Below, piece by piece: positions 5,428-51,370 of a stretch of DNA of 64,000 nt (position 1 is its first letter; every line of letters starts with the position of its first letter). This stretch comes from Synechococcales cyanobacterium GL140_1_metabinner_5_sub (GTDB taxonomy: Bacteria > Cyanobacteriota > Cyanobacteriia > Cyanobacteriales > Chamaesiphonaceae), in contig JANYHM010000115.1 in NCBI GenBank assembly GCA_025359065.1, forward strand, positions 62,001 to 126,000, in the 5' to 3' direction. The translations under genes and the position numbers were made by a program. The notes beneath the pieces were generated by a model, which saw only the letters and a program-made list of their open reading frames with translations, ran no database searches and was not told where the DNA came from.

Positions 5428-5454
5428 AGCCAGTCCTAAGTTCTAGGACTGGCT
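5428..5454 (-). terminator. Rho-independent terminator of ycf35
   Basis: A perfect 11-bp stem (AGCCAGTCCTA with TAGGACTGGCT, loop of 5 nt) is followed on the minus strand by TTTATTTATTC. It lies 24 bp past the ycf35 stop codon, so it most likely ends the ycf46-ycf35 transcript. Confidence 0.85.
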
Positions 5455-5478
5455 CTGTATTTTCGCAAAGAGAGAAGA

Positions 5479-5832: not shown

Positions 5833-5983
5833 AATCAGTTTCCTCCAAGGAATAGTTGAGAAAAAGTGAACATGGACTTAGCCATGCCACCCCAAAAAAT
5901 TACCGGGTGACATATCATCTGAACCAACTAGCAACCGGTTTTAACACCATGAGCTAGCCTTTCCTCCCGTAGGAGAAAACCTG

Positions 5984-7492: not shown

Positions 7493-7580
7493 AGTTCCCT
7501 ACCTATAAAAAACGGCTGTAAGAATGCGGTAGCTATTGGAAGTCAATTAATGATGTAGTGACCTCAGAAAGCTGCGATTT

Positions 7581-7898: not shown

Positions 7899-8225
7899 GG
7901 TGTTTAGCGGTGCATTCCGGGTTGCTTGTTACTAATTTAATAAAGTTTTTTGGAACTGTCAAGCTGTTTTAATGCTTTGACGGCAAAATCTTTACATTGC
8001 TTAACAATAGCTGATTGAGTATTGGTAACGCAATGATCTTGGTAAAGGTCGATGATAAGGTGGAACGCATCAAGTTTTAACCCTGCTCTAAGTCCTATGA
8101 CTATCAGCCAGAACTCTGTTACTTTGCGAGAGCTGAAGCCTGGTCAAAGCAAAGTCAAAACAAAATCACTTGCGATGCAAAAAATATAAAAAAACGTAGC
8201 GCCAGTAAAAAATCGAGGTAACTTA
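7899..8225. other. Divergent intergenic region (327 bp)
   Basis: Lies between the ribbon-helix-helix gene (minus) and the epimerase gene (plus), so it must hold both promoters. Apart from the start-less frame at 7937-8143 I see no RNA gene or clear operator. An A-rich tract (8172-8205) precedes the epimerase GTG start. Confidence 0.5.
7937..8143 (-). pseudogene. Open frame without a start codon, possible gene remnant
   Basis: On the minus strand a 68-codon frame runs from just after a TGA at 8146-8144 to a TAA at 7939-7937. The translation reads protein-like ('VTEFWLIVIGLRAGLKLDA' then 'FHLIIDLYQDHCVTNTQ' and 'KQCKDFAVKALKQLDSS'), but there is no ATG, GTG or TTG in frame. It may be the tail of a decayed gene upstream of the ribbon-helix-helix gene, or chance. 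No family recognised. Confidence 0.3.
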
Positions 8226-9401: not shown

Positions 9402-9486
9402 CAAAAAGCTTTGCTTTTGGAGCAGACTCCACGGACTTGGTCAGAAATTGCTAGGATAAGAGTATCAGCATGGGCTAATACAGACT

Positions 9487-10740: not shown

Positions 10741-10825
10741 ATAATATGAACAGATCTCTGTGAATAACTGGGTTTCAATATATTACAGTGCTAGCTTGTA
10801 ACGGCAGTCATTAATCGATTACTAA

Positions 10826-12310: not shown

Positions 12311-12368
12311 AAAGCATCTTGCGCAGGCTTCCTGTATTCTAAGATCGGTGAATATATGAAAAATCTTT

Positions 12369-13349
12369 ATGCTTCGTACTATTAAAATTGCCTCTCGCAA
12401 AAGTCAGCTTGCTCTAGTCCAAACCTATTGGGTACAAGCTGAGCTGCAAAAGCATTTCCCTGATCGCACTTTTGAAATTGAAACAATGAGTACTCAGGGC
12501 GACAAGATTTTAGATGTGCCCTTGGCCAAAATTGGTGATAAAGGTCTGTTCACCAAAGAGCTAGAAGTAAAAATGCTCGATAACACCGCAGACATTGCAG
12601 TGCATTCTCTCAAAGACTTGCCTACAAATTTACCAGAAGGCTTAGTGCTGGGCTGCATTACCGAGCGGGAGAATCCGGCGGATGCCTTGGTGGTAAACGC
12701 TAAGAATCAACAGTATCAATTAGAAACTTTGCCCGCTGGTTCAGTGGTGGGGACTTCTTCACTGCGGCGCTTGGCACAGTTACGCCACCATTACCCTCAT
12801 CTAGTTTTTAAGGATGTGCGGGGAAATGTGATCACTCGTTTAGAAAAGCTAGATAGCGGCGATTACGATGCGTTGATTTTAGCGGCGGCTGGCTTGGGTC
12901 GCTTGGATTTGGGCAATAGAATTCATCAGCTTATTCCCCCCGAAATTTCTTTGCACGCAGTTGGTCAAGGGGCTTTAGGTATTGAGTGCCGCATTGACGA
13001 TCAAGAGGTACTAGAAGTCTTGAAATCTTTGGAGCATCCAGCAACAGCAGCCCGCTGTATTGCAGAGCGTTCTTTTTTGAGAGCTTTAGAAGGCGGTTGT
13101 CAGGTGCCGATCGGGGTAAACACGCTAGTCGAGGGTGATCAGTTAACTCTCACTGGCATGGTGGCTACTTTAGATGGCCAGACTTTGATCAAAAACCAAG
13201 TTACTGGCGCTGTTACAGCGCCAGAGCAGTTGGGTAAAGATTTGGCTGTGGCTCTATGTGAGCAAGGTGCCCGCACTATTTTAGATGAAATCTTTGAGAT
13301 GGTTGGCCGGGATGGGTTGCGTCAGGTGTTACAGCAACAAACTGAGTAA
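12369..13349 (+). CDS. hemC: Porphobilinogen deaminase (hydroxymethylbilane synthase)
   Basis: Polymerises four porphobilinogens into hydroxymethylbilane in tetrapyrrole synthesis, feeding heme, chlorophyll and bilins. The 326-residue protein starts with '[19 protein letters not shown]' and has '[12 protein letters not shown]', 'GTSSLRR' (substrate-binding Arg) and '[10 protein letters not shown]', where Cys244 binds the dipyrromethane cofactor. Length is normal. It sits between nnr and a secreted-protein gene, all on the plus strand with short gaps. Confidence 0.98.
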
Positions 13350-13400
13350 AAGAAATACATCAGATGGATCAACTGTTGAATACTATTTTAGGTACAAATC

Positions 13401-20043: not shown

Positions 20044-20127
20044 GACTTGGTCTTCTTTGCTATTTTCGGACTAAGTAAAAGTGTTTTTGTAGCTATCAGC
20101 TTGGTTCTTGGGGGGGCCGACCCCCAG

Positions 20128-22866
20128 CTAATGATAGCCATTCTGACTCCCCTTGTTAGCAACAGTTGTTGCTGCTAGTTTGGCATCTAAGGCTTTTTCT
20201 AACAGAGGAACATTATCCTGAAGAGATTCCTTGGATTCTGACATCAAATTAACAGGGACGGGGTTGCGAGACATGATTAGTGAAATCGCGCGGCTGACGT
20301 TGTCGGGAAAAATAACTACCAGGGTATTTTTGGCGTTGTTATCCAGTGCCCATTCGATCGCCTCAGATTCGTTTAGTAATATTGAATAGGAAGCTGCTTG
20401 ATCGGTGGCTTGGATGCCCTGAACTATTAGCTCGGCTACGTCTCCCCAGGCACGACCTCGGCCATCGTCGTCTTCTTTTACAATGATGTGATCGAAGAAC
20501 TGGGCCGATAATGCGCCTAGCTCGATTAAATCTTCGTCTCGTCGATCGCCAGGGCCACCCACTACCCCAACGGTGGGGCCAGACCAATTTTTCACGAAGC
20601 TGCCTACCGCTGCATAGCCTGCGGGGTTGTGGGCATAGTCTACCAAAGCGTGATAGCTACCGAGATTAAACAAATTCATTCTGCCCGGTGTTTGGGCTGC
20701 TGAGGCATGGAAGCTCTGGAGAGCCGATCGAATATGTTCTACTTTTACTCCTTGTACAAAGGTTGCTAGGCAGGCAGCGAGAGCATTGGCAATCATAAAT
20801 GGTGCTCGGCCACCCAAAGTTAGAGGCACTCGATCGACTTTTTCAATGCGATGCACCCAGTCTTGCTGCAAAATGACCAAATAGTCTTCTTCATAAACAG
20901 CGGCAATGCCACCCCGATTGACGTGAGAGCGCACCAGTGGATTATTAGGATCCATTGAGAAATAAGCTACTTTGCCCCGTACTAGTTCTGCCATATCAGC
21001 AACTCTTTGATCGTCGGCGTTGAGTACTGCATAACCATCGGCATGGACGGTTTCGGCCACTACCGCTTTTACTTTGGCTAATTGATCGATCGTCTCAATA
21101 TCGCCTAAGCCCAAATGATCGGCGGCGACATTTAAAATTACGCCTACATCACAGGTTTGGAATGCCAGACCCGATCGCAGCATTCCACCTCGGGCTGTTT
21201 CTAACACTGCAATATCTACGGTGGGATCTTGAAGAATTAGTTGGGCGCTTTGTGGTCCGGTGGTGTCGCCTTTTTCAATGAGGTGCTCGCCGATGTAAAT
21301 ACCATCGGTGGTGGTAAAGCCCACGGAGTCGTAAATCTGGCTGAAGATATGGGCAATGAGGCGAGTGGTGGTGGTCTTGCCATTAGTGCCGGTCACTGCC
21401 ACGATCGGAATCCGGGTAGGGACATTGGGCGGAAACAGCATACTGATGATTGGGGCGGCTACATTGCGACCAACACCCACACTGGGAGAAATGTGCATTC
21501 TTAGACCCGGCGCAGCGTTAACTTCTACAATTACTCCGTCGGCTTCGGCTAATGTTTTAGAAATATCTGTGGTGACGACATCAATGCCGGTGACATCAAG
21601 ATCGATGATCTTAGAGACTCTTTCGGCTAACCATCGGGTTTCGGGGTGAATTTCGTCGGTGCGATCAATCGCAATGCCGCCGGTGCTCAAATTTGCAGTG
21701 GCTCGCAGGTAGCAAATTTGGTCTGGGGGCAGAATGGTGTCTAGGGTATAACCCTGATTACTCAATATTTCATCGGTAGAGTTATCAAGTTTAATTAGGG
21801 TCAACATATTGTCATGACCTTCGCCCCTGCGCAGATCTTGGTTTTCTTTGTCGATTAAAGCAGAGACAGAATCTTGACCATTACCAACTACATGGGCAGG
21901 TACTCGCTCAGCTACTGCTACCACTTTATGATTGACTACTAAAATGCGATGGTCGCGCCCTTGATAAAAATGCTCGACAATTACGCCCTTAGAAACTTCT
22001 TTGGCTCGATCGTAGGCGATTTCGACGTGCTCCCAAGAGTTAATATCGATTGTAATCCCTCGACCATGATTGCCACTGAGGGGTTTAATGACGATCGGGA
22101 AGCCTCCTAGACGGGGAATAGCGTCTTCTAATTCACTGAAAGAATAAATCACCATACCTTGGGGCACTCTTGCTCCCATGCTGGCCAGGATGTTTTTGGT
22201 TTTTTCTTTATTGCAGGCTAGCTCTACTGCCAAAATATTGCTGTGAGCAGTCAGTGATGCCTGGATGCGCTTTTGATGTTTGCCATAGCCTAACTGTATT
22301 AAGTCGCAGGTTTCTAGAGGCATCCAAGGAATGCCTCGGGATTCGGCTTCGCGCACTAATGATTCGGTGGTGGCTCCCAATGATGCCTGATTTTGCAGGT
22401 CACGTAGGTCGGCGATATCTCTAGCCAATTCGGAGGCAGGATAGCTGCCGGTTTCGATAATGCTTTCACACAGCCTGAGGGCGGCTCTGGCGGCGTAACG
22501 CCCTACTTCTTCGATTTGGTACTCAAAGACCACTTGATATACGCCAGGAGTGGCTGTTTCGCGGGTGCGGCCAAATCCGACGTTGATTCCTATTAGGTTT
22601 TGTAGTTCTAGTGCTACATGCTCCAAGATATGCCCTAGCATGGTGCCTTCTTTGACCCGCTGGAGAAAGCCCCCACGACAGCCCGGTGAACAAAAATGCT
22701 CTTCTAAACTGGGTAGTGCCACTACCAGGCTCTCGTAGAATTTTGGAATGGTGTTGGATGGTCGATCGGCTAATTCCTCCAAATCCAGTCTTACTAAAAT
22801 CAGTTTCGATCGACGAATGCTCCAATAGTTTGGTCCGCGTAATGTTTGGGTTTGGAGGATTTTCAT
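20128..22866 (-). CDS. cphA: Cyanophycin synthetase
   Basis: Polymerises aspartate and arginine into cyanophycin granules using ATP. The 912-residue protein has the N-terminal cyanophycin-synthetase domain ('TMLGHILEHVALELQNL'), an ATP-grasp domain at about 225-480 ('PIVIKPLSGNHGRGITID', 'GIDVVTTDIS') and a Mur-ligase-like domain with P-loop 'VTGTNGKTTTT' at about 490-500, then 'DYAHNPAGY' near the end. Both active sites look intact. The tail beyond the Mur domain is slightly longer than in common homologues. It is preceded by a 243-bp gap with an NtcA-like site at 23052-23065 and followed by putA. Confidence 0.98.
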   Translation of the reverse strand: MKILQTQTLRGPNYWSIRRSKLILVRLDLEELADRPSNTIPKFYESLVVALPSLEEHFCSPGCRGGFLQRVKEGTMLGHILEHVALELQNLIGINVGFGRTRETATPGVYQVVFEYQIEEVGRYAARAALRLCESIIETGSYPASELARDIADLRDLQNQASLGATTESLVREAESRGIPWMPLETCDLIQLGYGKHQKRIQASLTAHSNILAVELACNKEKTKNILASMGARVPQGMVIYSFSELEDAIPRLGGFPIVIKPLSGNHGRGITIDINSWEHVEIAYDRAKEVSKGVIVEHFYQGRDHRILVVNHKVVAVAERVPAHVVGNGQDSVSALIDKENQDLRRGEGHDNMLTLIKLDNSTDEILSNQGYTLDTILPPDQICYLRATANLSTGGIAIDRTDEIHPETRWLAERVSKIIDLDVTGIDVVTTDISKTLAEADGVIVEVNAAPGLRMHISPSVGVGRNVAAPIISMLFPPNVPTRIPIVAVTGTNGKTTTTRLIAHIFSQIYDSVGFTTTDGIYIGEHLIEKGDTTGPQSAQLILQDPTVDIAVLETARGGMLRSGLAFQTCDVGVILNVAADHLGLGDIETIDQLAKVKAVVAETVHADGYAVLNADDQRVADMAELVRGKVAYFSMDPNNPLVRSHVNRGGIAAVYEEDYLVILQQDWVHRIEKVDRVPLTLGGRAPFMIANALAACLATFVQGVKVEHIRSALQSFHASAAQTPGRMNLFNLGSYHALVDYAHNPAGYAAVGSFVKNWSGPTVGVVGGPGDRRDEDLIELGALSAQFFDHIIVKEDDDGRGRAWGDVAELIVQGIQATDQAASYSILLNESEAIEWALDNNAKNTLVVIFPDNVSRAISLIMSRNPVPVNLMSESKESLQDNVPLLEKALDAKLAATTVANKGSQNGYH

Positions 22867-36284: not shown

Positions 36285-37838
<1,554 letters not shown>

Positions 37839-37869
37839 TCACACTCAATAATTCATCTTATTAAAAATG

Positions 37870-37889
37870 GTCAACCGTAAAAATACATA
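37870..37889 (+). repeat. Direct repeat, copy 2
   Basis: Second copy of the 20-bp unit, just upstream of a -10-like TATACT. See copy 1 at 37789. Confidence 0.7.
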
Positions 37890-38062
37890 GGCTAATCTAG
37901 TGTTTATACTACGGCCAGACTCTTTGTATTTCAAGGGTTTGAGGTTTATACTGAACTTTTTAATTTACGTTATTTCTGAGCATTTCACAGGGAAAGATGA
38001 GATTGTAAGACCAATCATAAAAAAAGGTTGGCAGAGTAAACAACGCAAAATGAGTACTTCCC

Positions 38063-40486
38063 GTGAACGCAGACAAGTTATCTAAATATTCCCGTCCGGT
38101 CATTGTTTCGCTATTGATTAGCGGTGGCATGTTACAGTTAGCAGCACCAGTTTTGGCTCTTGGCACAGATGCTGGCACCCAGATCACCAACACGGCTACT
38201 GCTAGTTACGAAGATCCGACCGACCCTAACAAACCGTTAAATACTTTCTCTAACACTGTTAAAGTGACAGTCGCAGAAGTTGCCGGATTAACTGTAACTG
38301 CCGATACCTTTGCGATCGGCAAAGGTACTGGGATCAACGGCGTTGTGAACAGCGGTGTTGGTGCAGAAGCTGGTGACAAAGTGAACTTTGACTATATTGT
38401 TACCAACGTAGGTAACGATGCTACACAATTCCGAATTCCTGGTACTGCTACTGTTGCTGGTGCTGGTTCTGTAGACAAAGTTCAGTACTTTGACGGCACC
38501 AATTGGATTGATATTCCTAATGCTGGTGAATTCATTAGCCCTTCTAAGCTGTCTGGTGAAACCCTGAAGGTGCGCGTTATCGTTTCTATTTTGGCTGGTG
38601 CCACTGCCAACACTGATGTAACAGTAACTTTAGGTAATACCACCACTCCTGGTGCTCAAAACGTTACTCGTGATGCTACTGGTGGTGACGTATTTACTGT
38701 CGATAACCCCAATGGTGTGGCCGGTGAAGTTGATGGTGCTCCTGAAAATGGTGTCAGAGAAGCTTCTGTGTCGCAAAAAGTAACAGTTGGTGCTACTCCT
38801 GAAGCATTTGCTACTGTTACCAAAGTACATGGCGCTCAAAACCCAGGTGCTAACCCCAATATTTTGACTGATGACACCTTAACCTATTCATTGGCTTTAA
38901 AAGTTGCTAGCCAAGTTGATGTTCCTGTTACTAGCAACAAAATTGCTGCGGACTTAGCTGCTACTACCATCACTTTAGATGGCAATGCCGCAGCTAAGAA
39001 GGTATTGGTATCTGACGCTGTACCTCAGTATACCACTGCCAAAACTGTAACTGCACCTGCTGGCTGGACTGCCGTTTACACCACTAGCGTTGCTGCTACT
39101 GTGACTGCTGATAAAGCAATTTGGTTGTCAATTGGCACTGGTAGCGTTGCTGTACCTGCTGGCGCAACTCGCGTTGGTTTTGTAGCTGATGGCCCGATCG
39201 CCAAAGGTTCTACTACTCCTGACATGCTTGTCACAGTAGAGTTTACTAACATGCCTGCGACAGGTGGCAACGTTGCTAACATCGCTCAGGTATTTGGTAG
39301 CACCAATGTTAACGGTGTTCTGAAGCCAGTCTACGACGAATCTGGAGACAACAAGCCTAACAACTATAACGACAATGGCACTCCAGGACCTGTCGATCCT
39401 GCTACCGGCAGCCCAGTTGTTTCGACTGGTGTGGTTGATCCTACAGCTCCTGGCGTAACCGATACCAACAACAACAACACTGGTACTGGTGACGGTGGTG
39501 AACCAAACGTTTTAGCCGTTACTCCTCCTGGACAAGCCGGTATTTTGAACGGTACTAGCAACAATCCTGGTGCAGTTGGTCCTACTGGTGAAAATGATGA
39601 TTTCACTAACGTTTCTGCTCCAATTCCAGCTACTACTTGGGTTCTAGATGCCAATGGCAACTATGTTCCATCTGCAATCAATCCAGGTTCTGTACCTTTC
39701 TCCAACACTTTCAAAACTGCCGTTGGTAGCCCAACTGGTAGCGTAGACTTATTGCCTGTAACTCCAGCTACTCCCCTACCTGCTGGCACCAAGGTGACTA
39801 TCAGTAACGGTGGCTCCTCCAAGGTTTATGAGTTTGATGGCACTAAGTTTGTAGATGTAGTTAATGGTGTTGCTACCACAACTCCTGCTACTCCTTTGGT
39901 TATTGCTAACGTAGTTGCTGATACTAAGGTGAATTACGGCGTAGACGTAGATCTACCTGCTGGCACTCCACAGTTAGCTGGTTACAGTGTACCTGTTACT
40001 GCTTTTGTAGACATCAATGGTGACGGCATTTTGGGTGCTACTGATCCTCAAAATAAAACCATTGATCGGGTTTACACTGGCTACCTTAAGCTGACTAAAG
40101 AAGCTCAAATTACTGATGCTAATGGTGGAATTGTTGAAGCCTTTACTGCTGCTCCTAACAAGAAAGCACAGCCCGGTCAGTCGATCGAGTACAGGATCAC
40201 TTATACCAATATCTCGGAAGTCGCTCCTGCTAACAGCGGTAGCGTCACCTTGAATGCTGCCAACATCAAAGTAACTGAGGATGGTAATGCTGCTCCTAAC
40301 AACTGGGCACCTATTACTACTCACAAAGTAGGCTCAGCTACCGGCAGCAACAATGGTGCCATCACCTTTGACGCTGGTGCTAGCAACAACAGTACTCCGA
40401 CCGTAGCTGTCTACAAAGATGTAGTAGCCGGTCCTTTAGGTCCTCAAGCTGCTGGGTCATTCCGTTTCACTCGCGTTGTGAAATAA
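38063..40486 (+). CDS. Large secreted surface protein, putative major subunit
   Basis: 807 residues from a GTG start. A signal peptide spans about 1-33 ('IVSLLISGGMLQLAAPVLA'). The mature chain opens with 'ITNTATASY' (41-49) and 'EDPTDPNKPLNTFSNTVKV', then DUF11-like units ('NFDYIVTNVGNDATQFRIP'; 'IEYRITYTNIS' near 710), an Asp/Asn-rich stretch 'DESGDNKPNNYNDNGTPG' near 430, and 'FVDINGDGILGATD' near 650, which looks like a calcium-binding DxNxDG loop. There is no cysteine at all. Composition is dominated by Ala, Gly, Thr, Val and Asn. Codons are strongly biased to GCT, GGT, GTT, ACT and AAC, more than in the neighbours, which suggests high expression. Paralogous to the next gene over its whole length. 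Followed by a strong terminator. Function unknown; a structural surface layer or fibre subunit is inferred. Confidence 0.8.
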   Translation: MNADKLSKYSRPVIVSLLISGGMLQLAAPVLALGTDAGTQITNTATASYEDPTDPNKPLNTFSNTVKVTVAEVAGLTVTADTFAIGKGTGINGVVNSGVGAEAGDKVNFDYIVTNVGNDATQFRIPGTATVAGAGSVDKVQYFDGTNWIDIPNAGEFISPSKLSGETLKVRVIVSILAGATANTDVTVTLGNTTTPGAQNVTRDATGGDVFTVDNPNGVAGEVDGAPENGVREASVSQKVTVGATPEAFATVTKVHGAQNPGANPNILTDDTLTYSLALKVASQVDVPVTSNKIAADLAATTITLDGNAAAKKVLVSDAVPQYTTAKTVTAPAGWTAVYTTSVAATVTADKAIWLSIGTGSVAVPAGATRVGFVADGPIAKGSTTPDMLVTVEFTNMPATGGNVANIAQVFGSTNVNGVLKPVYDESGDNKPNNYNDNGTPGPVDPATGSPVVSTGVVDPTAPGVTDTNNNNTGTGDGGEPNVLAVTPPGQAGILNGTSNNPGAVGPTGENDDFTNVSAPIPATTWVLDANGNYVPSAINPGSVPFSNTFKTAVGSPTGSVDLLPVTPATPLPAGTKVTISNGGSSKVYEFDGTKFVDVVNGVATTTPATPLVIANVVADTKVNYGVDVDLPAGTPQLAGYSVPVTAFVDINGDGILGATDPQNKTIDRVYTGYLKLTKEAQITDANGGIVEAFTAAPNKKAQPGQSIEYRITYTNISEVAPANSGSVTLNAANIKVTEDGNAAPNNWAPITTHKVGSATGSNNGAITFDAGASNNSTPTVAVYKDVVAGPLGPQAAGSFRFTRVVK

Positions 40487-40513
40487 CCTGTCTCTTTCGG
40501 GAGTACTAAATCT

Positions 40514-40533
40514 GCGGGCGGTTCGCCGCCCGC
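40514..40533 (+). terminator. Strong terminator after the first surface-protein gene
   Basis: 8-bp all-GC stem GCGGGCGG/CCGCCCGC with a UUCG tetraloop, followed by TTTCTTCC, 28 bp past the stop codon. It would let only part of the transcripts reach the downstream genes. Confidence 0.88.
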
Positions 40534-40668
40534 TTTCTTCCAAATCACAGAATGTTCGCTGGTCTAGGCTCGGGTGAATCAGTTCAGCCTACACAAGCGA
40601 AACATCTAAACTATTTGGTTTTGTCCTTTAACCTCAGGTCGCAATAGCAAGTTTATTGCAGAGCAAGC

Positions 40669-43080
40669 GTGAAACAATTTTCCTCGATTCGTAATTTATC
40701 ACTGTACTGCTTAGTGGCTACTGGCCTGAGTTTAGCAAGTACAGCAGTTGCTGCCCCAGTGCCCATTATCAGCAACCAAGCAGAAGGCAACTACCAAGAT
40801 CCGATCGATCCCAACAGGCCATTTACAGTTTTCTCTCCCACCCTAAAAATCAGTCTCCAAGAAATAGCTGGTATTACAGTCGTTCCGACTGGCATTACCC
40901 GCCAAGATGGCAGTTTAAATGGTGGCACCGTAGGCACTCCCACCAAAGACACGGTTCTATTTTACAATTTCGAGATTCAAAATATTGGCAGCGACACCAC
41001 TAAGTTTTTTGTGCCTAACCTTGCTCAAGTGGGGACAGTTGGTAACTTCCAAAAAAATCAATATTTCAATAGTATTGATTGGTTAGATGTACCTGTTGGG
41101 GGTTTTACTAGTGGAGTGATGCTGCCAAATGCCAAACTACCAGTGCGAGTAGTAGTTTTAGTGAATGATGCGATCGGCGATTTACCGGTCACATTAGGTA
41201 AAACGACGGGTTCTATAAATCCTGCTCAGACCCAAAACCAACTGCGCATCGACAACCCCGAAGACGTTTACACCATTGATGTGGCAGATGGAACAGTCGG
41301 AGAATATGATGGTCAACCTGGTAATGGTACTCGGGAAGCTCAGGCAACCCAAACCTTCAAAATAGGTGCTACGCCAGAAGCGCTTGCTAAAGTTACACTG
41401 GAAATCAAACAGCCTTTTAACCCGGCTGACAACACCATTAATTTTGGTCTGAGCTTGAATGTAGCTGATACCTTGCCCACGAATGTGAGCAATATTAGTC
41501 CTACGGATTTAACTGGTACTAGTACTTCGATCGATGGTCAAACTAAAACAGGCATCTTGATTTCTGACGCGATTCCGTTGGGCACTAAACTGATAGCAGC
41601 AGTCACACCAGATAATACCTGGATACCAATTTATTTCTACAGTAGCACCTCGATCAGTTCTACCGATACAGCTAATAATGTTGCTTGGTCTACCACTCCC
41701 CCCGATGCCAACACCGCTCTAAATGTCCGACGAGTAGGCTTCTTCCGCAACGATTACCGGATGCCCAAAGGCACTACAGTTATAGGATTTCAAGTCAAAG
41801 TCGAAATCACCGACTTTAGCCGCACCGAAATTTATAATATTGCTCAGGTCTTTGGTAGCCAACCCCAAAATCCGAACAACTCGGCAGACAAAAATCCTAG
41901 CACTAAGCTCATCTTTGATGAATCTGGTGACAGCCAACCCAATAACTACAATGATGATGGTACGGCAGGAATAAAAGATACAGAGCAGCAGCCTGTATTG
42001 TATCCGGGGATTTTGGATGCAGCGGTTCCGGCTAATGACCCTCGATCACCAAACAGAATTGGTTCTGATACGAGCAAGAATTCACCAGATGGCGAATTTT
42101 TATCGGTGCCCTTCAAGATTGCTGCTCCCCCGGCACTCAAAAATGGCCCTCGGGAACAGCCCACCGCAGTTGGTGCAACTAACGACAACGATGATTTTAC
42201 CAATAAATCTACGCCGATCGCCTTTGGTGGCAGCGGAGCTATTGGCAGTCCAAATGGTTCCACAAATCTACCACTGGTCACTTTTACCAATACCGTATTA
42301 AACAGCAGTGACCTGGCTCGGGATATCAAAATATTACCCCAAGTATCGGTGGCTAGCGACTTACCCAATGGCACGATCATCACCTTACTGGATTCAGCAG
42401 ATGCTAATCTCACCGCAGCATTCAGCTACCAAAATAGCATTTTTACACCTGTCGTAAATAGCCCTGCTACCTTGGTGCTGAAAAATGTACTAGCCAGCGC
42501 TACTAAAAACTACACGGTGCAGGTTAGCCTACCGGCTGGCACCGGAGCAGTTAAGGGGTACCCCGTGAAATTACTGGCATTTATTGATACCAATAATGAC
42601 AATATCCCGGATACTACCGAAGCCAAAAATGCCACGATCGATCGCACTTACACCGGTTTTGTTGAGGTGTTAAAGGAATCGCGAGTGCTGGATGCTAACA
42701 AAATGCCGCTAACTGATGCCAAAGGTGTTTTTAGCGAAACGCCCAAACCAGTCAAAGTCGATCAGTACATCGAGTATCGCATCACCTACACCAATATCTC
42801 TACCGTGGCAGTGGGGACTGGCAACAAGCCTATTAGCGCTATCAACTTCACTATCACCGAAGACGGTATCGCCAGTCCAACCAATGCTAACAATTGGGGC
42901 GACTTGACCACCAATGATCCCAGTTCGGCGACCAGCACCGCAGGCACCATTACTCACAGTAAAGCTGGCGGAGTTGGCACGGCCACCGATTTAGACATAG
43001 TGAAATACCAAAATATTCTTACTAAGCCGATCGAACCTGGTCAGATTGGCACTTTTACCTTCCGACGTAAAGTAAAGTAG
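40669..43080 (+). CDS. Large secreted surface protein, paralogue of the preceding gene
   Basis: 803 residues from a GTG start. Signal peptide about 1-29 ('LYCLVATGLSLASTAVAA'); the only cysteine is inside it. Segment by segment it parallels the previous protein: 'ISNQAEGNY' (34-42), 'QDPIDPNRPFTVFSPTLKI', 'EYDGQPGNGTREAQATQ', 'IGATPEALAKVT', 'FDESGDSQPNNYNDDGTAG', 'FIDTNNDNIPDTTE', 'IEYRITYTNIS' and the C-terminal 'GTFTFRRKVK'. It lacks the extreme codon bias of its paralogue, so it is likely a minor form. No enzymatic motif is seen. It lies 182 bp downstream, past a terminator, and may have its own promoter. Confidence 0.78.
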   Translation: MKQFSSIRNLSLYCLVATGLSLASTAVAAPVPIISNQAEGNYQDPIDPNRPFTVFSPTLKISLQEIAGITVVPTGITRQDGSLNGGTVGTPTKDTVLFYNFEIQNIGSDTTKFFVPNLAQVGTVGNFQKNQYFNSIDWLDVPVGGFTSGVMLPNAKLPVRVVVLVNDAIGDLPVTLGKTTGSINPAQTQNQLRIDNPEDVYTIDVADGTVGEYDGQPGNGTREAQATQTFKIGATPEALAKVTLEIKQPFNPADNTINFGLSLNVADTLPTNVSNISPTDLTGTSTSIDGQTKTGILISDAIPLGTKLIAAVTPDNTWIPIYFYSSTSISSTDTANNVAWSTTPPDANTALNVRRVGFFRNDYRMPKGTTVIGFQVKVEITDFSRTEIYNIAQVFGSQPQNPNNSADKNPSTKLIFDESGDSQPNNYNDDGTAGIKDTEQQPVLYPGILDAAVPANDPRSPNRIGSDTSKNSPDGEFLSVPFKIAAPPALKNGPREQPTAVGATNDNDDFTNKSTPIAFGGSGAIGSPNGSTNLPLVTFTNTVLNSSDLARDIKILPQVSVASDLPNGTIITLLDSADANLTAAFSYQNSIFTPVVNSPATLVLKNVLASATKNYTVQVSLPAGTGAVKGYPVKLLAFIDTNNDNIPDTTEAKNATIDRTYTGFVEVLKESRVLDANKMPLTDAKGVFSETPKPVKVDQYIEYRITYTNISTVAVGTGNKPISAINFTITEDGIASPTNANNWGDLTTNDPSSATSTAGTITHSKAGGVGTATDLDIVKYQNILTKPIEPGQIGTFTFRRKVK

Positions 43081-43165
43081 CCAGTTTGGGAATACTAACT
43101 ATGATCGCCCTTTTCTTTGGGGAATCAGAATCTTTATCTACACTAGTCTAGGAGAATTCCTGCTC

Positions 43166-43678
43166 ATGAAACGCTCTATCTTCTCTACCTTTTCGACTGT
43201 TGCTATAGTGGCTCTTTCTACCACTATCTTACTCAACAGCAATTTACCAGTCATCGGCCAATTGGCGGTGCCCGCTGTCGCTCAATCTGCTGAGCAACAG
43301 CAAGCAATTAAACTCAACCTTTCTCAGAATAAGAAAGTTGGTTCTAAGTTGGTGCCTATCTCCAACAGCACTTCAGTTAAGCCCGGCGATGTAATTGTTT
43401 ACACCGTTACTGCTAACAACGTCAGCGATCGCACCATCACAAAATTGAACATTGACCAAAAAATCAAGTCTGGTACTGTTTATGAAAGCCAGTCAGCTAC
43501 CTCTGTAGCCAATGCCGATTTGACTTTCAGCGTTGACGGTGGTGCAAGCTTTTCAGCCAAACCAGTTCTCAACAAAAAGCCTGCTTCTGCTAGCACCTAC
43601 ACTAATGTTCGCTGGGTATTTGCTACTGTGCCACCTAAGAGCAAATCTACTGTCAGCTATGCCGTAGTTGTGCGCTAG
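43166..43678 (+). CDS. Small secreted DUF11-like protein
   Basis: 170 residues. Signal peptide about 1-40 ('VAIVALSTTILLNSNLPVIG' then 'QLAVPAVAQS'). The rest is one DUF11-type beta-sandwich: 'VKPGDVIVYTVTANNVSDRTI', (residues 72-92, key PGD and Y-x-x-x-x-N-x-S), 'DQKIKSGTVYESQSA' and 'ANADLTFSVDGGASFSA', ending with 'KSTVSYAVVVR'. No cysteine in the mature part. It could be a cap, linker or chaperone-like single-domain unit of the same structure. AGGAG lies 12 bp before the ATG. Confidence 0.78.
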   Translation: MKRSIFSTFSTVAIVALSTTILLNSNLPVIGQLAVPAVAQSAEQQQAIKLNLSQNKKVGSKLVPISNSTSVKPGDVIVYTVTANNVSDRTITKLNIDQKIKSGTVYESQSATSVANADLTFSVDGGASFSAKPVLNKKPASASTYTNVRWVFATVPPKSKSTVSYAVVVR

Positions 43679-43732
43679 CTCGATGGTTCCGTCGATTCAG
43701 ACCCCGTCGATTTATTACTAAAGGAAAGCTTC

Positions 43733-45253
43733 GTGTTTAGATTTCAGTCGCCCTCACACAGAATATATCTGTCTGTTGGTTGTGCTAGCTGGTTGGTGTC
43801 GAGTTTATTAGCAGCTCAGCCCTTGTGGGCGCAGGATGCTGTGATTAAGATTACCAACCAAGCTCAGTACAATTACAACACCAATCAAGATGGCCCCAGC
43901 ACTGGTAGCCAAGATACTACAACTATTCAAAGCAGTACTGGTCAAATCGTCAACGATTTTACCGGCCTAATTGATCCGCTGGGGGTAATTACTGGCTGTA
44001 ACGGGCAGAAACTAGCAGATTACAACGGTTATACCATAGCCCTCTTTAACTCTGCTGCCGATGGATTGAATCCGACGGGGTTAGCGACCTTAGTACAAAC
44101 AGAAGTTCCTGACAATCCGAACAATAATATTCCTCTAGGTCTGCGACCAAATAGTAACAACGACAATCCTTTCAGGCTAGACACTACAAGTACAGGGGCT
44201 TATAACTTCCTGTTTAACAGGGCTGCTGGCCAATTGGATGTAGGTAAAAGCTATATTTTAGTTGTGAAACCACCAGCTAACTCCACCTATGCTGAACGAC
44301 GGATACGCATTGATGTTACTAGCTTCAGTAACAACATTTTGAGCTACAAAGCTACTAGTCTAGATGGTCAGCCTCTGAACTTAATTGATAATAGCACAGT
44401 AGTATCTAGCCAAGTAAACGTTAATGATGCTACCACCACCGGACTTAACCTTTCTTTGCTCAGTCTCAGAGGTATTGGAGTTAGTGCCTGCGATGCTAAG
44501 CCAATCCAAATTGTCAAAAGTGCCGATCGAGCCAGCGCCGAACCGGGCGACACAGTGGTTTATCGTCTGACTCTCCGCAACCTGAGCGACACCGATATTA
44601 TCAACCCCACAGTTACTGATACTTTACCTCTAGGACTATTCCTCCGCCCAGAATCGGTCAAAGCTCAGTTGGGTTCAGCAATACAGCCCGTCACTATTAG
44701 CCAAAACGGCAGCACCACTACATTCAAGGTCGGCGCACCTGGCTTTACTATCCCTGCAAAACAGGTAGTAAATTTGGTCTACGCTGCTACTTTAGATGCA
44801 GATGCTATTCGCGGCACTGGTCGAAACATCGCTAGCCTCACTGCTATTCGCAAAGATAACAATGTACCTATTACTGATGGCCCGGTTGGCTATCAGCTCA
44901 CTGTCCGTCAAGGCTTAATTCGAGATACTGGTACCTTACTTGGCCGAGTATTTGTCGATAAAAACTTTGATGGTGAACAACAGCCCAATGAACCCGGCGT
45001 ACCAAATGCCGTAGTCTTTTTAGACGACGGTAATCGGATCACGACAGATGCCAATGGTCTGTTCTCTGTCCAATCAGTTGCCACTGGGTATCGCACTGGC
45101 GTATTAGACCTAGGCAGTTTACCTGGATACACTCTAGCTCCCAATATCCGTTTTGTTGAACGCAACAGTCTATCCCGACTGGTGAAAATTGCTCCCGGTG
45201 GCATTGTCAGAATGAATTTTGGCGTTACACCTACAGCGCGCGAGGCTAAATAA
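43733..45253 (+). CDS. Secreted DUF11 / SdrD-B-like protein
   Basis: 506 residues from a GTG start with GGAAAG upstream. Signal peptide about 1-34 ('ASWLVSSLLAAQPLWAQ'). The mature chain again opens with 'ITNQAQYNY' (40-48). Residues ~60-255 form a domain with two cysteines, ~257-385 a DUF11 unit ('SAEPGDTVVYRLTLRNLSD', 'VTDTLPLGLFLRPESV'), and ~400-500 an SdrD-B-like unit ('GRVFVDKNFDGEQQPNEPG', then 'VVFLDDGNRITTDANGLFSV') with a probable Ca-binding DxNxDG loop. The C-terminus 'IAPGGIVRMNFGV' resembles the region before beta-barrels in larger fused proteins of other phyla. The beta-barrel gene begins 2 bp after its stop, which fits the idea that here the two parts are split and translationally coupled. 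Confidence 0.8.
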   Translation: MFRFQSPSHRIYLSVGCASWLVSSLLAAQPLWAQDAVIKITNQAQYNYNTNQDGPSTGSQDTTTIQSSTGQIVNDFTGLIDPLGVITGCNGQKLADYNGYTIALFNSAADGLNPTGLATLVQTEVPDNPNNNIPLGLRPNSNNDNPFRLDTTSTGAYNFLFNRAAGQLDVGKSYILVVKPPANSTYAERRIRIDVTSFSNNILSYKATSLDGQPLNLIDNSTVVSSQVNVNDATTTGLNLSLLSLRGIGVSACDAKPIQIVKSADRASAEPGDTVVYRLTLRNLSDTDIINPTVTDTLPLGLFLRPESVKAQLGSAIQPVTISQNGSTTTFKVGAPGFTIPAKQVVNLVYAATLDADAIRGTGRNIASLTAIRKDNNVPITDGPVGYQLTVRQGLIRDTGTLLGRVFVDKNFDGEQQPNEPGVPNAVVFLDDGNRITTDANGLFSVQSVATGYRTGVLDLGSLPGYTLAPNIRFVERNSLSRLVKIAPGGIVRMNFGVTPTAREAK

Positions 45254-45255
45254 CT

Positions 45256-48200
45256 ATGAAATACTCTCAAGCAGCTTTAGCGATTTGTCGAGCATTCTGG
45301 CTGGGCGCAGCTATTCAAGGATTAGGTTTAATTCTCTCTAGCACTTGCGTTCAAGCTGCTCCTCTTCTTGACAACGCAATTATTCCTGGCGCAGCGCTAG
45401 CTAGCCCCGCTCCGGCTGCACCAGAGCCATCAGCAGAACCAATCGCTCTAGCAAAACCAGTTAGCATCAGCAATCCGCTGCAAATTTTAACTCCGACTAC
45501 TAATAGTGTTGTCGATATCCCCGCAGCTACTGTTATCGTCCAATATTTAGGTAGCTCACCAATTGAACTAAAAGTCAACGGTCAACTGGTAGATAGTAAG
45601 TCGATCGGACGCACCGAAACTGATACTAAAACCAATATTGTTACCCAAACTTGGTATGGGGTATCGCTCAACGCTGGTGACAATATTATCGTTGCTCAAG
45701 ACAACCAGGGCAATACTGCGGTAAGCAAAGTACAGGTGCGTGGTGTACCAACAAAAGTACAGCTTACTACCAAAGAAAGCCGTGTACCTGCTGACGGTCG
45801 CTCTTTAGTAAATGTGGAAGGCCAGTTGCTAGATGAAAATGGCAACAATAGTAAACGCGATGGTGTAGTGACTCTTTATAGCACTGCGGGCGAATTTGCT
45901 GGCGTAGACAAAGACCGTGACCAGCCGGGTTTTCAAGTACCGGTAGTCAAAGGTTACTTCTCGGCTCCACTGAGAGCGGGTCTGACTGCTCAAAACGTGC
46001 AGATTCGAGCCACCATCATGAGCTTGGAAGCCACCACCCAAGTTCAGTTTGAGACTAACCTGCGCAGCTCGATCGCTACTGGTTTGTTAGATTTACGAGT
46101 AGGTGCTAGGGGCACTGACTACTATCGTTCTTTTACCGAGTTTTTACCGGTTGATCGCGATAACAACACCGAAGTCCGCTTACGTGGTCAAGGGTTTGCT
46201 ACTGGCCGCATTGGTGACTGGTCAGTAACTGGAGCTTTAAACAGCGATCGGCCTTTAAACAAGGTCTGTAACACCTCCGATCGACTATTCCGCGATACTA
46301 GCAGCACTCAATCTTGCGAAGATCTCTATCCGGTCTATGGCGATACTTCCAAAGTAGAAGCACTGACTCCTTCCCGAGACAGCGTCTATGTGAAACTAGA
46401 AAGCTCAGTAGGCGTAGCGGGTAGCACTCCCAACTCGTTGCTCTGGGGTGATTACAATACCACCGAGTTTGCCAATCGCTCTCAGCAGTTTACTACTACT
46501 TCTCGGAACCTTCATGGAGCTAAACTAAACTACAACTTTGGTAACTTGTTGGTTAGCGGTTTCTATGGCGACAATCTGCAAGGTTTCCAGCGAGATAACA
46601 TTGCCCCCGATGGCACTAGTGGCTATTACTTCTTGTCTCAGCGTTTACTGTTGGGTGGCACCGAATCTTTGAGCGTAGAGACCGAAGAGATTGATCGGCC
46701 AGGCAATGTGGTTAAAGTAGAGCCATTAGCCCGAGGCTTAGATTATGAAATTGACTACGATCGCGGTACCGTCTTACTGCGTAGTCCTTTGCTGCGCACT
46801 GCTGTAGCCGACAATGGCAACTTACTAGTTCGTCGCTTAATTGCTACTTATCAATATGCTAATGGTTCTAACAGTAACATTATTGGTAGTCGTGCCCAAT
46901 TTAACCTCAACCGCACTAATGGCCAAGAAAGTTGGTTAGCCGGTAGCTATACCAAAGAAACTCAAGGAATTAGAGACTTCAGCATTTTTGGTGTAGATGG
47001 ACTTATCTCCTTGGGCAACAGCAGCAACATTGTTGCAGAATACGCCCGTTCTACCAACAACAGCGGTCTAGGTGATGCGATAGGCGGCAGCGCCTTCCGG
47101 GTCGAAGGACAGTTCAAATTTAGCGATACCACTCAAAGTCGGGCTTACCTGCGCAGCAGTGAAGCTGGTTTTTCTAACAACGCGACTACTAGCTTTGTCC
47201 CTGGCCAAACTCGCTATGGTGCTGACCTAACTACTCGAATTGGTAACGGCACTAGTTTAAGGCTGCAAGCCGATCGAGAAGAAAATCGCGGTTTGCCCCC
47301 GATCGCCATCACCGGACTAACTAATTTCTTAATTCCCAGCATTCCAGTAACTGGTCGGGTCGATAACGACTTAACTACGGTTACGGCCGGTATTCAGCAA
47401 CGTTTGGGTAGTGCCACTGTCGATTTAGACTACGTTAATCGCAGTCGCCAAGATCGCTTAGCTACTCTTCCTAGCCAGTCAGATGTTTCTTCTGATCAGA
47501 TTCGGACAAGAGTTGGAATACCTTTAGGTAATAATTTGACTCTGCGAGGTCAAAATGAAATCAACCTCAGCAACCAGCAAGATGTGGTTTACCCTAACCG
47601 CACAGCTTTGGGCGTTGATTGGGCTGTATACCCCGGCATCAACCTGCGACTGAGCCAGAACTATGTTTCTAGCACCCAGTTTGGAGATAGCAATTATACC
47701 AGCTTAGATTTTGACAGCACATACAACCTCACCAACAGCACTAAAGTAATTGGTCGTTACTCTCTAAGTCCTTTCCAGTCGATCGGCTCTGTCGGACTTC
47801 AGCAAGGATTTGTGCTCAGCCCTGGACTCAAACTAGACCTGAACTACGAAAAAGTAATTGGTAGCATCACCAATGTTACTGGTGCTGGTCAGCAGTTTGC
47901 CCAACCCGTAGGCAGCGGTCAAGTAGCTTCTAGCTTAACCACTACTGGTGGCGACACCTATGGTATTGGTTTTAACTACACCGACAACGCCAACTTCCAA
48001 GCTAACGCTCGCTACGAACTGCGCAATACTAATATCAGCAGCTCCAGCTTAATTTCGGCGGGTGCTACAGGTAAGCTTGGTTCTGACTTGACTGCCTTGT
48101 TCCGCTTCCAGCAATCTGGAGCAGCTAATCAGCTTTTGCGAGATGCCCCGATCGGCGACACCACCAACCTCAAATTAGGGTTGGCTCTGCGGAACCCTGC

Positions 48201-48729
48201 GGTAGATCAATGGAACGCCCTGCTTAGCTATCAATATCGCAAAAACCCTGCCCTATTGCCTTCCAGCATTTTAACTGCCAGTGGTACTGGTTCCGAAGAT
48301 CATACTTTGTCTCTAGACGCTATTTATGCACCTAGCTGGCAGTGGGAGTTTGCTGGAAAATATGCTCTGCGTAATGCTACTAGCTACTTAGATCAAACTC
48401 TTAGCGCTGGCAACACGATCGGCATTAGTCAACTGCGAGCCACTTACCGCCTGGGCTACAACTGGGATCTGACTGGCGATGTGCGCTGGCTGAGCCAATT
48501 TGCTAGCGGTCGTAACGAAACCGGTGCTTCTTTAGAAGCTGGTTATTACCTCACTCCTAACCTCCGCCTCTCTGGTGGCTATAGCCTAGGTGCAGCCGAT
48601 GACCCCAATGGCAACCGCACTGGCGGCGGTTTATACGCCGGAGTCACCTTAAAGCTCAACGATTTATTTGGCGGCTTTGGTCAACAGCAGCTCAGCCCCA
48701 TCCAACAGCAGGAGTCTAAAATCAAATGA
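45256..48729 (+). CDS. Outer-membrane beta-barrel protein with an N-terminal invasin-like Ig domain
   Basis: 1157 residues. Signal peptide to about residue 35 ('GLILSSTCVQA'), then a Pro/Ala-rich linker, a small beta domain (~75-160) and a Big_1/invasin-like unit at ~165-255 ('VPADGRSLVNVEGQLLDENG'). From ~270 to the end alternating strands ending in aromatic residues indicate a large barrel. Family-type landmarks are 'WGDYNTTEFANRSQQF', 'LHGAKLNYNFGNLLVSGFYG', 'GTSGYYFLSQRLLLGGTESL' and 'ARGLDYEIDYDRGTVLL', a pattern I associate with DUF11/SdrD-containing outer-membrane proteins of other phyla. The final residues are Gln-rich rather than the usual aromatic last strand. It overlaps the next gene by 4 bases (ATGA). 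Likely the outer-membrane anchor or exporter of the surface proteins; that role is inferred. Confidence 0.8.
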   Translation: MKYSQAALAICRAFWLGAAIQGLGLILSSTCVQAAPLLDNAIIPGAALASPAPAAPEPSAEPIALAKPVSISNPLQILTPTTNSVVDIPAATVIVQYLGSSPIELKVNGQLVDSKSIGRTETDTKTNIVTQTWYGVSLNAGDNIIVAQDNQGNTAVSKVQVRGVPTKVQLTTKESRVPADGRSLVNVEGQLLDENGNNSKRDGVVTLYSTAGEFAGVDKDRDQPGFQVPVVKGYFSAPLRAGLTAQNVQIRATIMSLEATTQVQFETNLRSSIATGLLDLRVGARGTDYYRSFTEFLPVDRDNNTEVRLRGQGFATGRIGDWSVTGALNSDRPLNKVCNTSDRLFRDTSSTQSCEDLYPVYGDTSKVEALTPSRDSVYVKLESSVGVAGSTPNSLLWGDYNTTEFANRSQQFTTTSRNLHGAKLNYNFGNLLVSGFYGDNLQGFQRDNIAPDGTSGYYFLSQRLLLGGTESLSVETEEIDRPGNVVKVEPLARGLDYEIDYDRGTVLLRSPLLRTAVADNGNLLVRRLIATYQYANGSNSNIIGSRAQFNLNRTNGQESWLAGSYTKETQGIRDFSIFGVDGLISLGNSSNIVAEYARSTNNSGLGDAIGGSAFRVEGQFKFSDTTQSRAYLRSSEAGFSNNATTSFVPGQTRYGADLTTRIGNGTSLRLQADREENRGLPPIAITGLTNFLIPSIPVTGRVDNDLTTVTAGIQQRLGSATVDLDYVNRSRQDRLATLPSQSDVSSDQIRTRVGIPLGNNLTLRGQNEINLSNQQDVVYPNRTALGVDWAVYPGINLRLSQNYVSSTQFGDSNYTSLDFDSTYNLTNSTKVIGRYSLSPFQSIGSVGLQQGFVLSPGLKLDLNYEKVIGSITNVTGAGQQFAQPVGSGQVASSLTTTGGDTYGIGFNYTDNANFQANARYELRNTNISSSSLISAGATGKLGSDLTALFRFQQSGAANQLLRDAPIGDTTNLKLGLALRNPAVDQWNALLSYQYRKNPALLPSSILTASGTGSEDHTLSLDAIYAPSWQWEFAGKYALRNATSYLDQTLSAGNTIGISQLRATYRLGYNWDLTGDVRWLSQFASGRNETGASLEAGYYLTPNLRLSGGYSLGAADDPNGNRTGGGLYAGVTLKLNDLFGGFGQQQLSPIQQQESKIK

Positions 48730-50825
48730 AACTAGTTAACTATTTCCTGCTGCTGGCATTGGGTAGCAGCGCCCTCCCAGCTCAGGCAAACAATGACTCC
48801 CCAGATGTTTACAATTTACAATTCACTGTAAATAGTGATCGAGATGAGGTCAGTCCTGATGATTTTTTAACATTACGGGAAGCGATCGAGGTGATCAATG
48901 GCAAGATCAAGCTCGATCAACTCACTACTGCCGAACGTAAACAATATGTTCCAGAAGTAATGAATGGTTCAAAGATCGTTTTTAAGTTACCAGCGGGTAG
49001 TCAACGAATTCAACTTCAGTCGGCGTTACCAGCAATCACCCAACCGGGCGTAACAATCGAAGGAAAAACGACTGGTAAAGCTACTTTAGATGGTCTGACT
49101 TTTGAGGTGCCAGAGGTCGAAATTACTCCAGCTCCAGGAGTCATGATTGATCGGGGTCTCACCCTCATGGCCGACAACATTACCGTGAAGGGCTTAAGCC
49201 TTTATGGGTTTCAAGTTGGCATCAATCCCAGCAGTCAAAACCTCCCTGGCGCAGATATTTTTATTGGCACCAAAACTTATCCCGAAATTGACGAACGGCT
49301 GGCTCCTAAAAACATTGTGATCGAAAACAATTTTCTGGGCATCAATAAAAATCGTCAGATGCCAGACAGCACCTCCGATTTTGGCGTGTATGTTTTCGAT
49401 TCTCAAGGCATCACTATTCGCAATAACGCGATCGGCTTCCATACGGCCAGCGGCATTATCAGCCAAATTAGCGCCAATAACCTGTTGGTCGAAAACAACG
49501 CGATTTTTGCCAACGGCACCCAAGGAATGCCCGATGCCATTCGGTTAGAAGGTAAATTAGCCAACAACAAAATTAAAGGCAACTCCATTTGTGGCAACGA
49601 TGGCAGCGCCGTATTTATGTTTAAACCCGATTCTGGTGCCGTGGCCATCACCAACAACCGCATTTCCTCCAATGGTCGTCGCCTCCGGCGCGCCGCAATT
49701 CATTTAATGGGTAATGACAATGTGGTAGATAACAACTCGATCGAGTTTCAGGCAGGCTCCGGTGTCTCGGTTTCAGCGTTTGCTCAACATCATCGGGGCG
49801 ATTTGCCCTCTGGCCGCAATGTCATTAGCAACAATCGCTTTAGCAACCTAGAAGGACTCAGCATAGACCTAATTACCTATCGCAACGAAGCCGTCGAAGA
49901 TTTCCAAAATGGCGATGGCATTAATGCTCCCCGCAACAGCGAAAACCGCCGTCTAGATACGGGGAACGGAGCAATCAATGCGCCGCAGTTTCTAGCTAAC
50001 GAGTTCTACATTTTAGGTGGCCGGGTCAACCTAGATGGCACCGCCGAGCCAAATACTAAGGTAGAAATCTACCGGGTAAATAGCACCAAAGAGATTGAGT
50101 ATGGTCCCTTATCTCAGCCCCTAAAAACAGTTAGTGCCGACGCTCAAGGCAAATTCCAAGCCACATTAACTGGCCTAGAACCAGGAATGGTCTTAAGCGC
50201 AGTTACTACCGATGCTAAATATGGCACCTCCGAACCAGCCCGCAATGCGATCGTCACTGTACCTGGTCAGACCGCTTTAGCTCGTGAAGCGCAGCTATCC
50301 GAACCAGTTAAAAAAATCCCCGCTGATTGCAGCCTCCAAAATGTACCTGTAGCAGTTAATCCCCCCATTAAAGTCACGCCGCCTCCCGCCCCACCAATTC
50401 CAGTAGAACCACCAATCCCGAGCATTGTCAAAATCTCTATTCCCCAAAAGGTTCACTTCGCTCTCGATAAATCCTATCTCAGCCCAGCGACCACTAAGTT
50501 GTTAGATGAAATCGTGCGCGTACTGCAAGCTAACCCCAGCATCAGCGTTGATCTGGCTGGACATACTGACCCTCGGGCACCACAGGCTTACAACCAGGCT
50601 TTGGGAATGCGACGGGCAACAGCAGTGCGGAATTACCTGCTTCGCAAAGGTATTTCTACCAACCGTATGACCATTCGATCGATGAGCTTCAACAATCGCG
50701 CTACTGCTGACCAAGGCGTGAATCCCTATGCCCTCGATCGACGGGTAGAGTTTGAATATCGTGATGTGCGCGGCGTGGAGTTACAGGTGATTGATCGCTT
50801 CGATGACTTACAACCCGAACGCTAG
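48726..50825 (+). CDS. Exported beta-helix protein with C-terminal OmpA domain
   Basis: 699 residues. Signal peptide about 1-21 ('YFLLLALGSSALPAQA'). An N-terminal CSLREA-like stretch 'FTVNSDRDEVSPDDFLTLRE' lacks the Cys, then a right-handed beta-helix at ~130-390 with repeated 'NNxI/NNAI' turns ('IVIENNFLGI', 'ITIRNNAIGFHTASG', 'LLVENNAIFANG'). An Ig-like unit follows (~420-510), a Pro-rich linker ('VTPPPAPPIPVEPPIPS'), and an OmpA domain at ~570-690 with 'VDLAGHTDPRAPQAYNQALG' and 'RRATAVRNYLLRKGI', the peptidoglycan-binding helices. Starts inside the stop of the barrel gene. It would tie the barrel or surface structure to the cell wall. A 44-bp palindrome closes the cluster. Confidence 0.85.
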   Translation: MKLVNYFLLLALGSSALPAQANNDSPDVYNLQFTVNSDRDEVSPDDFLTLREAIEVINGKIKLDQLTTAERKQYVPEVMNGSKIVFKLPAGSQRIQLQSALPAITQPGVTIEGKTTGKATLDGLTFEVPEVEITPAPGVMIDRGLTLMADNITVKGLSLYGFQVGINPSSQNLPGADIFIGTKTYPEIDERLAPKNIVIENNFLGINKNRQMPDSTSDFGVYVFDSQGITIRNNAIGFHTASGIISQISANNLLVENNAIFANGTQGMPDAIRLEGKLANNKIKGNSICGNDGSAVFMFKPDSGAVAITNNRISSNGRRLRRAAIHLMGNDNVVDNNSIEFQAGSGVSVSAFAQHHRGDLPSGRNVISNNRFSNLEGLSIDLITYRNEAVEDFQNGDGINAPRNSENRRLDTGNGAINAPQFLANEFYILGGRVNLDGTAEPNTKVEIYRVNSTKEIEYGPLSQPLKTVSADAQGKFQATLTGLEPGMVLSAVTTDAKYGTSEPARNAIVTVPGQTALAREAQLSEPVKKIPADCSLQNVPVAVNPPIKVTPPPAPPIPVEPPIPSIVKISIPQKVHFALDKSYLSPATTKLLDEIVRVLQANPSISVDLAGHTDPRAPQAYNQALGMRRATAVRNYLLRKGISTNRMTIRSMSFNNRATADQGVNPYALDRRVEFEYRDVRGVELQVIDRFDDLQPER

Positions 50826-50835
50826 GGTATAAAAC

Positions 50836-50879
50836 AAAATTTAGGACTGTTCTCTAATTAGAGAACAGTCCTAAATTTT
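50836..50879. terminator. Bidirectional terminator, perfect 44-bp palindrome
   Basis: Bases 50836-50857 are the exact reverse complement of 50858-50879 with no loop bases, running from AAAATTTAGG to CCTAAATTTT. It fills nearly the whole 54-bp gap between the convergent beta-helix gene and the small minus-strand gene, and both directions end in a T-tract. Confidence 0.92.
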
Positions 50880-51134
50880 CTAATCCTTACTGATGTAGCT
50901 TTCTAGCTCCGATCGACTCATTTCTTTCCCCACATGCCAACCTTGGCAAAAAGCACAGGGATAACCCTCTAGAGTATTACGGGTGCTAGCCTTGCTGTTC
51001 ATTTTTTCGGCATAAACCGCAGCCTTATCTTCGGTGACATAGTTTATTTTTTTGCCGCAAATTTTCTCTTTCCCAATTACTAGCCCAGCTTGGATATGGA
51101 GCTTCTGAATATCTTCGTTCATTTTTTTGTTCAT
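50880..51134 (-). CDS. Small hypothetical protein with C-x-x-C-x-x-W-H motif
   Basis: 84 residues (or 80 from ATG 51122). Lys-rich and probably cytoplasmic. The visible feature is 'YPCAFCQGWHVGKEMS' near the C-terminus, a CxxCxxWHxG motif that may bind zinc and occurs in small cyanobacterial and phage proteins. Another Cys lies in 'EKICGKKINY'. The N-terminal half contains 'YVTEDKAAVYAEKMNSK', a helix with conserved-looking Ala and Lys. No function known to me. Convergent with the surface cluster and divergent from speA. Confidence 0.65.
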   Translation of the reverse strand: MNKKMNEDIQKLHIQAGLVIGKEKICGKKINYVTEDKAAVYAEKMNSKASTRNTLEGYPCAFCQGWHVGKEMSRSELESYISKD

Positions 51135-51370
51135 GGGCAGTAGCTTAATGATACCTTCCTATGTCTACAGTCTGTATATTTCTTTGACGACCCACTAAGT
51201 AGTTTGGCGTAAACAGGCGATCATAGGATTAATTTTAGCCCAGACCACCAGCAAGCCCAGAACCCATCTTCAAAAACAAAATTTTTGTGGGTATCATATC
51301 AAGGAAAGTCGAACCCGAGAATAAATCGGTTACACTTAATGTCGCCAACGCTTTTGGGAGGTATCGTCAC

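Follow-up and report, generated by a model that had tools for sequence, protein, structure and literature searches.

A codon-biased gene and its paralogue as probable major and minor subunits in a conserved cyanobacterial outer-membrane gene cluster

Two adjacent cyanobacterial genes, here called A and B, encode paralogous secreted-type proteins that differ in codon usage, and are best read as the major and minor subunits of an outer-membrane surface structure, an interpretation that is considered moderately probable. The location of this structure, the amounts of the two proteins, the activity of a hairpin between their genes and the role of the downstream gene E are what we infer under this reading. 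Gene A stands first in a conserved cyanobacterial outer-membrane gene cluster, A-C-D-E, which is apparently unstudied; a search of open-licence papers returned one naming the DUF7925 domain of A and none describing the cluster.

The window, i.e. the whole stretch of 64,000 nucleotides that was analysed, is part of contig 28 in a 3.92-Mb cyanobacterial genome, and the genes of interest all lie on its forward strand. Gene A (38063–40486) encodes a secreted-type, multi-domain Ig-like protein of 807 aa, the putative abundant subunit, and gene B (40669–43080) a paralogue of 803 aa with genome-average codons, the putative minor subunit. These are followed by gene C (43166–43678; 170 aa), which encodes a secreted-type DUF11 protein scoring above the TIGR01451 cut-off, and gene D (43733–45253; 506 aa), the product of which has DUF11 and SdrD_B-like domains. 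The protein encoded by gene E (45256–48729; 1157 aa) has invasin-like Ig domains at its N-terminus and is predicted to form a large outer-membrane beta-barrel, and gene F (48726–50825; 699 aa) encodes a right-handed beta-helix (PF13229, E 3.1e-11) with an OmpA family domain (PF00691, E 7.4e-15). Folding of the region downstream of F identified a 20-bp palindrome with a T-rich end (about 50836–50879, forward strand), likely the terminator of the cluster. A search of positions 37700–51300 against Rfam found no RNA families, and A, B and E had no matches in PHROGs.

Residues 41–807 of A align with residues 34–803 of B (37% identity, 344 bits), and DUF7925 (PF25546; residues 249–435 of A) was detected in both (162.6 bits, E 1.2e-47 for A and 144.1 bits for B; cut-off 26.5), confirming the proposal in the first-pass annotation that the two genes are paralogous from end to end. 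A 2025 survey predicted an intramolecular isopeptide bond in DUF7925, a CnaA-like family, with Lys264, Asp326 and Asn415 as the residues involved in the representative Q8YS00 (PMC12617251). The matching positions in A are K254 (codon at 38822–38824, forward strand), D318 and N406, and the triad is kept in almost all relatives, with the lysine present in 32 of 34 aligned proteins and the aspartate and asparagine in all 34. B retains the aspartate and asparagine but has no lysine at this position, thus it is possible that B differs in function. Where it treats DUF7925, the survey deals with the domain itself rather than with its gene cluster or barrel, and B differs from the family described there in having lost the lysine. 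Of 292 genomes sampled from the phylum, 27 encode DUF7925, almost always in single copy. Homologues of A of ~575 aa without DUF7925 were also found in otherwise normal C-D-E clusters (L181, coordinates 336–2066; L182, 3500–5233; L183, 3468–5189), which points to a removable isopeptide module.

Codon adaptation was calculated with a high-expression set made up of ribosomal and phycobiliprotein genes, against a background of 388 ORFs, each 150 aa or longer, taken from ~0.5 Mb of the same genome; this background may contain a few spurious ORFs. The index of A was 0.759 (99.2 percentile, z +2.9), well above the genome mean of 0.621, and that of B was 0.618 (45th percentile), in line with the bias described in the first-pass annotation. 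The codons GCT, GGT, GTT, ACT and AAC make up 60% of usage in A and 34% in B (genome mean 34.5%), and the reference set contains four phycobiliprotein genes in which their fraction is 0.55–0.71. Synonymous usage differs between A and B (chi-square p about 2e-12), and the bias of A is spread along the whole gene. Local base composition is an unlikely source, as GC3 is 0.41–0.48 in the neighbours B to F against 0.35. The statement that only the first gene is extremely biased is correct for the A/B pair but not for the locus, where C is level with A (0.743, 99th percentile) and E lies above the average (0.688, 94th percentile); D (0.630) and F (0.647) are nearer to the mean. High expression of C was rejected as a general rule, since C does not exceed its flanking genes at other loci. 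Codon bias in A is higher than in the flanking genes at 68 of 75 loci, and in another genus of the same family A has 0.57 and 0.51 preferred codons versus 0.28–0.36 in the genes that follow. Together these suggest that high production of A is old, to which the ordinary-level paralogue B would be a local addition.

The 185-nt A–B spacer includes a hairpin (40514–40533, forward strand) with an exact 8-bp stem composed entirely of G and C (GCGGGCGG-TTCG-CCGCCCGC), followed by the tail TTTCTTCC, and contains further structure. None of 3000 dinucleotide shuffles of the spacer produced an all-GC stem of this length, and the hairpin pattern occurs once in the 3.9-Mb genome. In the only sister genome (L055), the stem is unchanged at all 16 bases, whereas the loop reads AACG and the rest of the spacer differs at many places, which suggests, for the two sequences compared, that the stem is kept by selection. 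C(UUCG)G is an extra-stable tetraloop; here the closing pair is G-C, not C-G. The UUCG loop, not being conserved in the sister genome, was therefore dismissed as the key feature, and what stands of the GC-rich UUCG hairpin described in the first-pass annotation is an all-GC hairpin, not a classical cUUCGg tetraloop. The stem is G or C at 8 of 8 positions, and the tail has 5 T in 8, a poor U-tract compared with the T-flanked palindromes found after F and after a phycobiliprotein gene. A terminator common to the family was not found, a hairpin with at least four T being present in just 11 of 78 A–C spacers. The palindrome TTGTAGAGACGTAGC...GCTACGTCTCTACAA recurs in A–C spacers (L062, coordinates 12503–12593; L090; L101), and is possibly a dispersed repeat.

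The first-pass annotation described the hairpin as a strong terminator that separates the major from the minor subunit. However, C lies beyond B and is as codon-biased as A, hence the hairpin alone cannot divide A from all downstream genes. The strong bias of C implies either that C–F have a promoter of their own or that B is distinguished by codon choice rather than transcript level. Given this bias, the non-classical loop and the weak U-tract, the hairpin is better read as a candidate leaky terminator or RNA-stabilising element, which may set the A:B ratio.

How this ratio would be set admits an alternative, which we rate below even but take seriously, namely that the hairpin is mainly a 3' stability or processing element, with cleavage of the message between the two genes leaving the A part protected, as happens where operon transcripts are processed selectively. 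This shares the major/minor view and differs just in the way the ratio is set. It is consistent with the weak U-tract, with the stem-loops of the cip-cel operon, which set subunit ratios in this way (PMC10311766), and with the palindromes often seen after A in relatives, where 43 of 72 spacers have z below -2. Palindromes are, however, frequent after C as well (31 of 71) and so not specific to A, and an all-GC stem with 5 T in 8 also fits an intrinsic terminator. In the cip-cel operon, too, a hairpin stands between genes for subunits needed in unequal amounts, with activity proven there and inferred here.

A more distant, and rather doubtful, alternative is that the codon gap records selection history and not present dosage, B being a condition-specific alternative to A, with the hairpin ending the A transcript and B–F served by their own promoter. 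The absence of the isopeptide lysine from B, the length and further structure of the spacer, and the strong bias of C, as if B-C-D-E received more than read-through, are all compatible with this. Against it, a scan of positions 40487–40668, with partial coverage of cyanobacterial promoters, found no promoter-like site.

Outside the window, B was seen only in the sister-genome contig (L055), where it is ended by the contig edge but readable; its carriers are two genomes of one genus. A is 81% identical between these two genomes, and preferred-codon fractions in the window and the sister are 0.60 and 0.57 for A and 0.34 and 0.36 for B. Two genomes from the family's other genus have a single A, which is followed by C or D, then by E and F. 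B is apparently a genus-specific addition between A and C to a cluster that usually has a single A, and a view of B as an ancient, fixed minor subunit cannot be upheld. In the tree, A groups with one relative from the same family and B is on a long branch (1.33–1.44 versus 0.48–0.72); a clade of A and B gave an AU p of 0.057, and an origin of B from A within the genus is not clearly shown by the tree. B is under purifying selection, as is A (dN/dS between the window and the sister genome 0.11 and 0.14, respectively). The long branch and the lost lysine would suit a decaying, functionless duplicate with average codons from relaxed selection, but this is very improbable and was rejected on the dN/dS of B, which is as low as that of A, while the reading frame is open across 803 aa, a signal-peptide-like start and the C-terminal tail are retained, and the preferred-codon fraction equals the genome mean.

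Of 80 named loci, 71 keep the order A-C-D-E unbroken and most of the others are interrupted by contig ends; F or another tail-bearing DUF11 protein comes next. E was found in all 27 genomes with DUF7925 among the 292 sampled, and in 9 further genomes without DUF7925, two of these matches being weak or fragmentary. It is the most conserved component of the cluster (about 50% identity). One genome (G091) carries two complete, diverged A-C-D-E clusters (L040 and L041). Homologues of E with ~30% identity were present in G035 and G047, members of the phylum outside the class of the window genome. A genome without detectable E has a 2709-aa ORF with an A-like C-terminal region (L187, coordinates 5262–13391).

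An AlphaFold2 model of A (pLDDT 78.7) is a string of beta-sandwich domains, and its fold matches include PrgB, the CFA/I pilins CfaB and CfaE, CupB6, BcpA and SdrD, with low whole-chain TM-scores. Such scores are usual for multi-domain strings. The prediction for A is thus an Ig-like beta-sandwich chain of the kind seen in pilins and adhesins. Sequence searches of solved structures with A and the A profile found no matches, and with E found just beta-galactosidase Ig domains and chance-level matches. Members of the E family match the invasin D3 and Big_1 models, and some give a porin-like barrel signal. The model of E was poor (pLDDT 67.8), and its fold matches include large outer-membrane barrels, among them TonB-dependent receptors, the Mtr complex, SlpA and SprA, which does not identify the class. 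Fold TM-scores are low (0.1–0.3).

A and B both end in F-x-F-x-R-x-V-K/N, and in relatives the C protein carries Y, V and R at positions -6, -2 and -1, respectively. A large DUF11 protein is often encoded 3' of E and ends in Y-G-F-x-R-F-R-x-K/R-V-K/N, the tail being near-invariant (L056, coordinates 19082–21952; L058, 18774–21431; and others). A DNA pattern for this tail matched 23 of 292 genomes; E is present in 22 of these 23, and in 36 of the 292 overall. A reversed-pattern control gave one match. The association with E (Fisher p about 1e-22) is uncorrected for kinship and comes partly from linkage with E. Both matches in the window genome are on a different contig. This genome also encodes three large proteins distant from the cluster, on contigs 34 and 73 (L035, coordinates 3079–6777 and 6938–11203; L036, 3060–6590), two with an A-like N-terminal domain and all three ending in Y-G/G-Y-x-R/K-F-R/K-x-R/K-V-N/K or similar. 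A third match of the A-type tail pattern in this genome (contig 82) was outside any fitting gene and was taken as chance. The conserved tail provides a lead, not proof, for a C-terminal sorting or assembly strand.

Among known systems, chaperone-usher and sortase pili resemble the proposed reading of this locus in having abundant and scarce related Ig-like subunits in one operon, and CfaB/CfaE and BcpA are among the fold matches of A. However, no usher or PapD-like chaperone was matched in A–E by Pfam or NCBIfam models or in F by Pfam, no sortase or LPXTG-type anchor was found by profile (A and its relatives ending in the F-x-F-x-R-x-V-K/N tail), and A–F gave no match to the SLH domain. The suggestion of major and minor subunits as in pilus or surface-layer operons therefore survives as a codon contrast between secreted-type paralogues that is conserved in the sister genome, while membership of either class gains no support from these profile searches, and the comparison is an analogy. 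Deinococcus SlpA, of the S-layer deinoxanthin-binding complex, is a large, surface-abundant outer-membrane barrel and is among the top fold matches of E, but the TM-score is low (about 0.25), and E has neither a sequence match to it nor an SLH match. The DUF11/CLIPPER fibrillar adhesins and the DUF11 fibres of the GhpA/GhlA grappling hooks (PMC13319060) are likewise secreted chains of Ig-like beta-sandwiches; whereas those are giant single proteins, several proteins of 170–800 aa are encoded here along with an outer-membrane barrel.

In the preferred reading, A and B would be paralogous secreted subunits that form a fibre or layer in a conserved cyanobacterial outer-membrane surface system. 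A, made at a very high level, would be the bulk subunit, and B, made at an ordinary level and kept by selection, a minor subunit, perhaps with a specialised part in that structure. E, the large outer-membrane barrel, would probably export or anchor the Ig-like subunits, and the hairpin after A would most likely lower B as a leaky terminator and/or a stabiliser of the 3' end of the A message.

The principal protein channels of the cyanobacterial outer membrane have been described as unknown (PMC11424642). We tentatively suggest, as a possibility on the unlikely side, that A-C-D-E is an undescribed dedicated pathway for outer-membrane export and assembly, in which the E barrel would display Ig-like, isopeptide-locked subunits whose C-termini share a conserved beta-strand tail (an aromatic residue at -6, then V at -2 and K, N or R at -1), with A as the bulk subunit and B as a minor subunit without the DUF7925 cross-link, at a dose set by the hairpin. 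A conserved cluster in which Ig-like surface subunits are encoded together with a single large barrel of the outer membrane is a specific candidate for such a dedicated route, or for an anchor, and A and B form a ready-made pair on which to examine how operons of this type build in a step in dosage.
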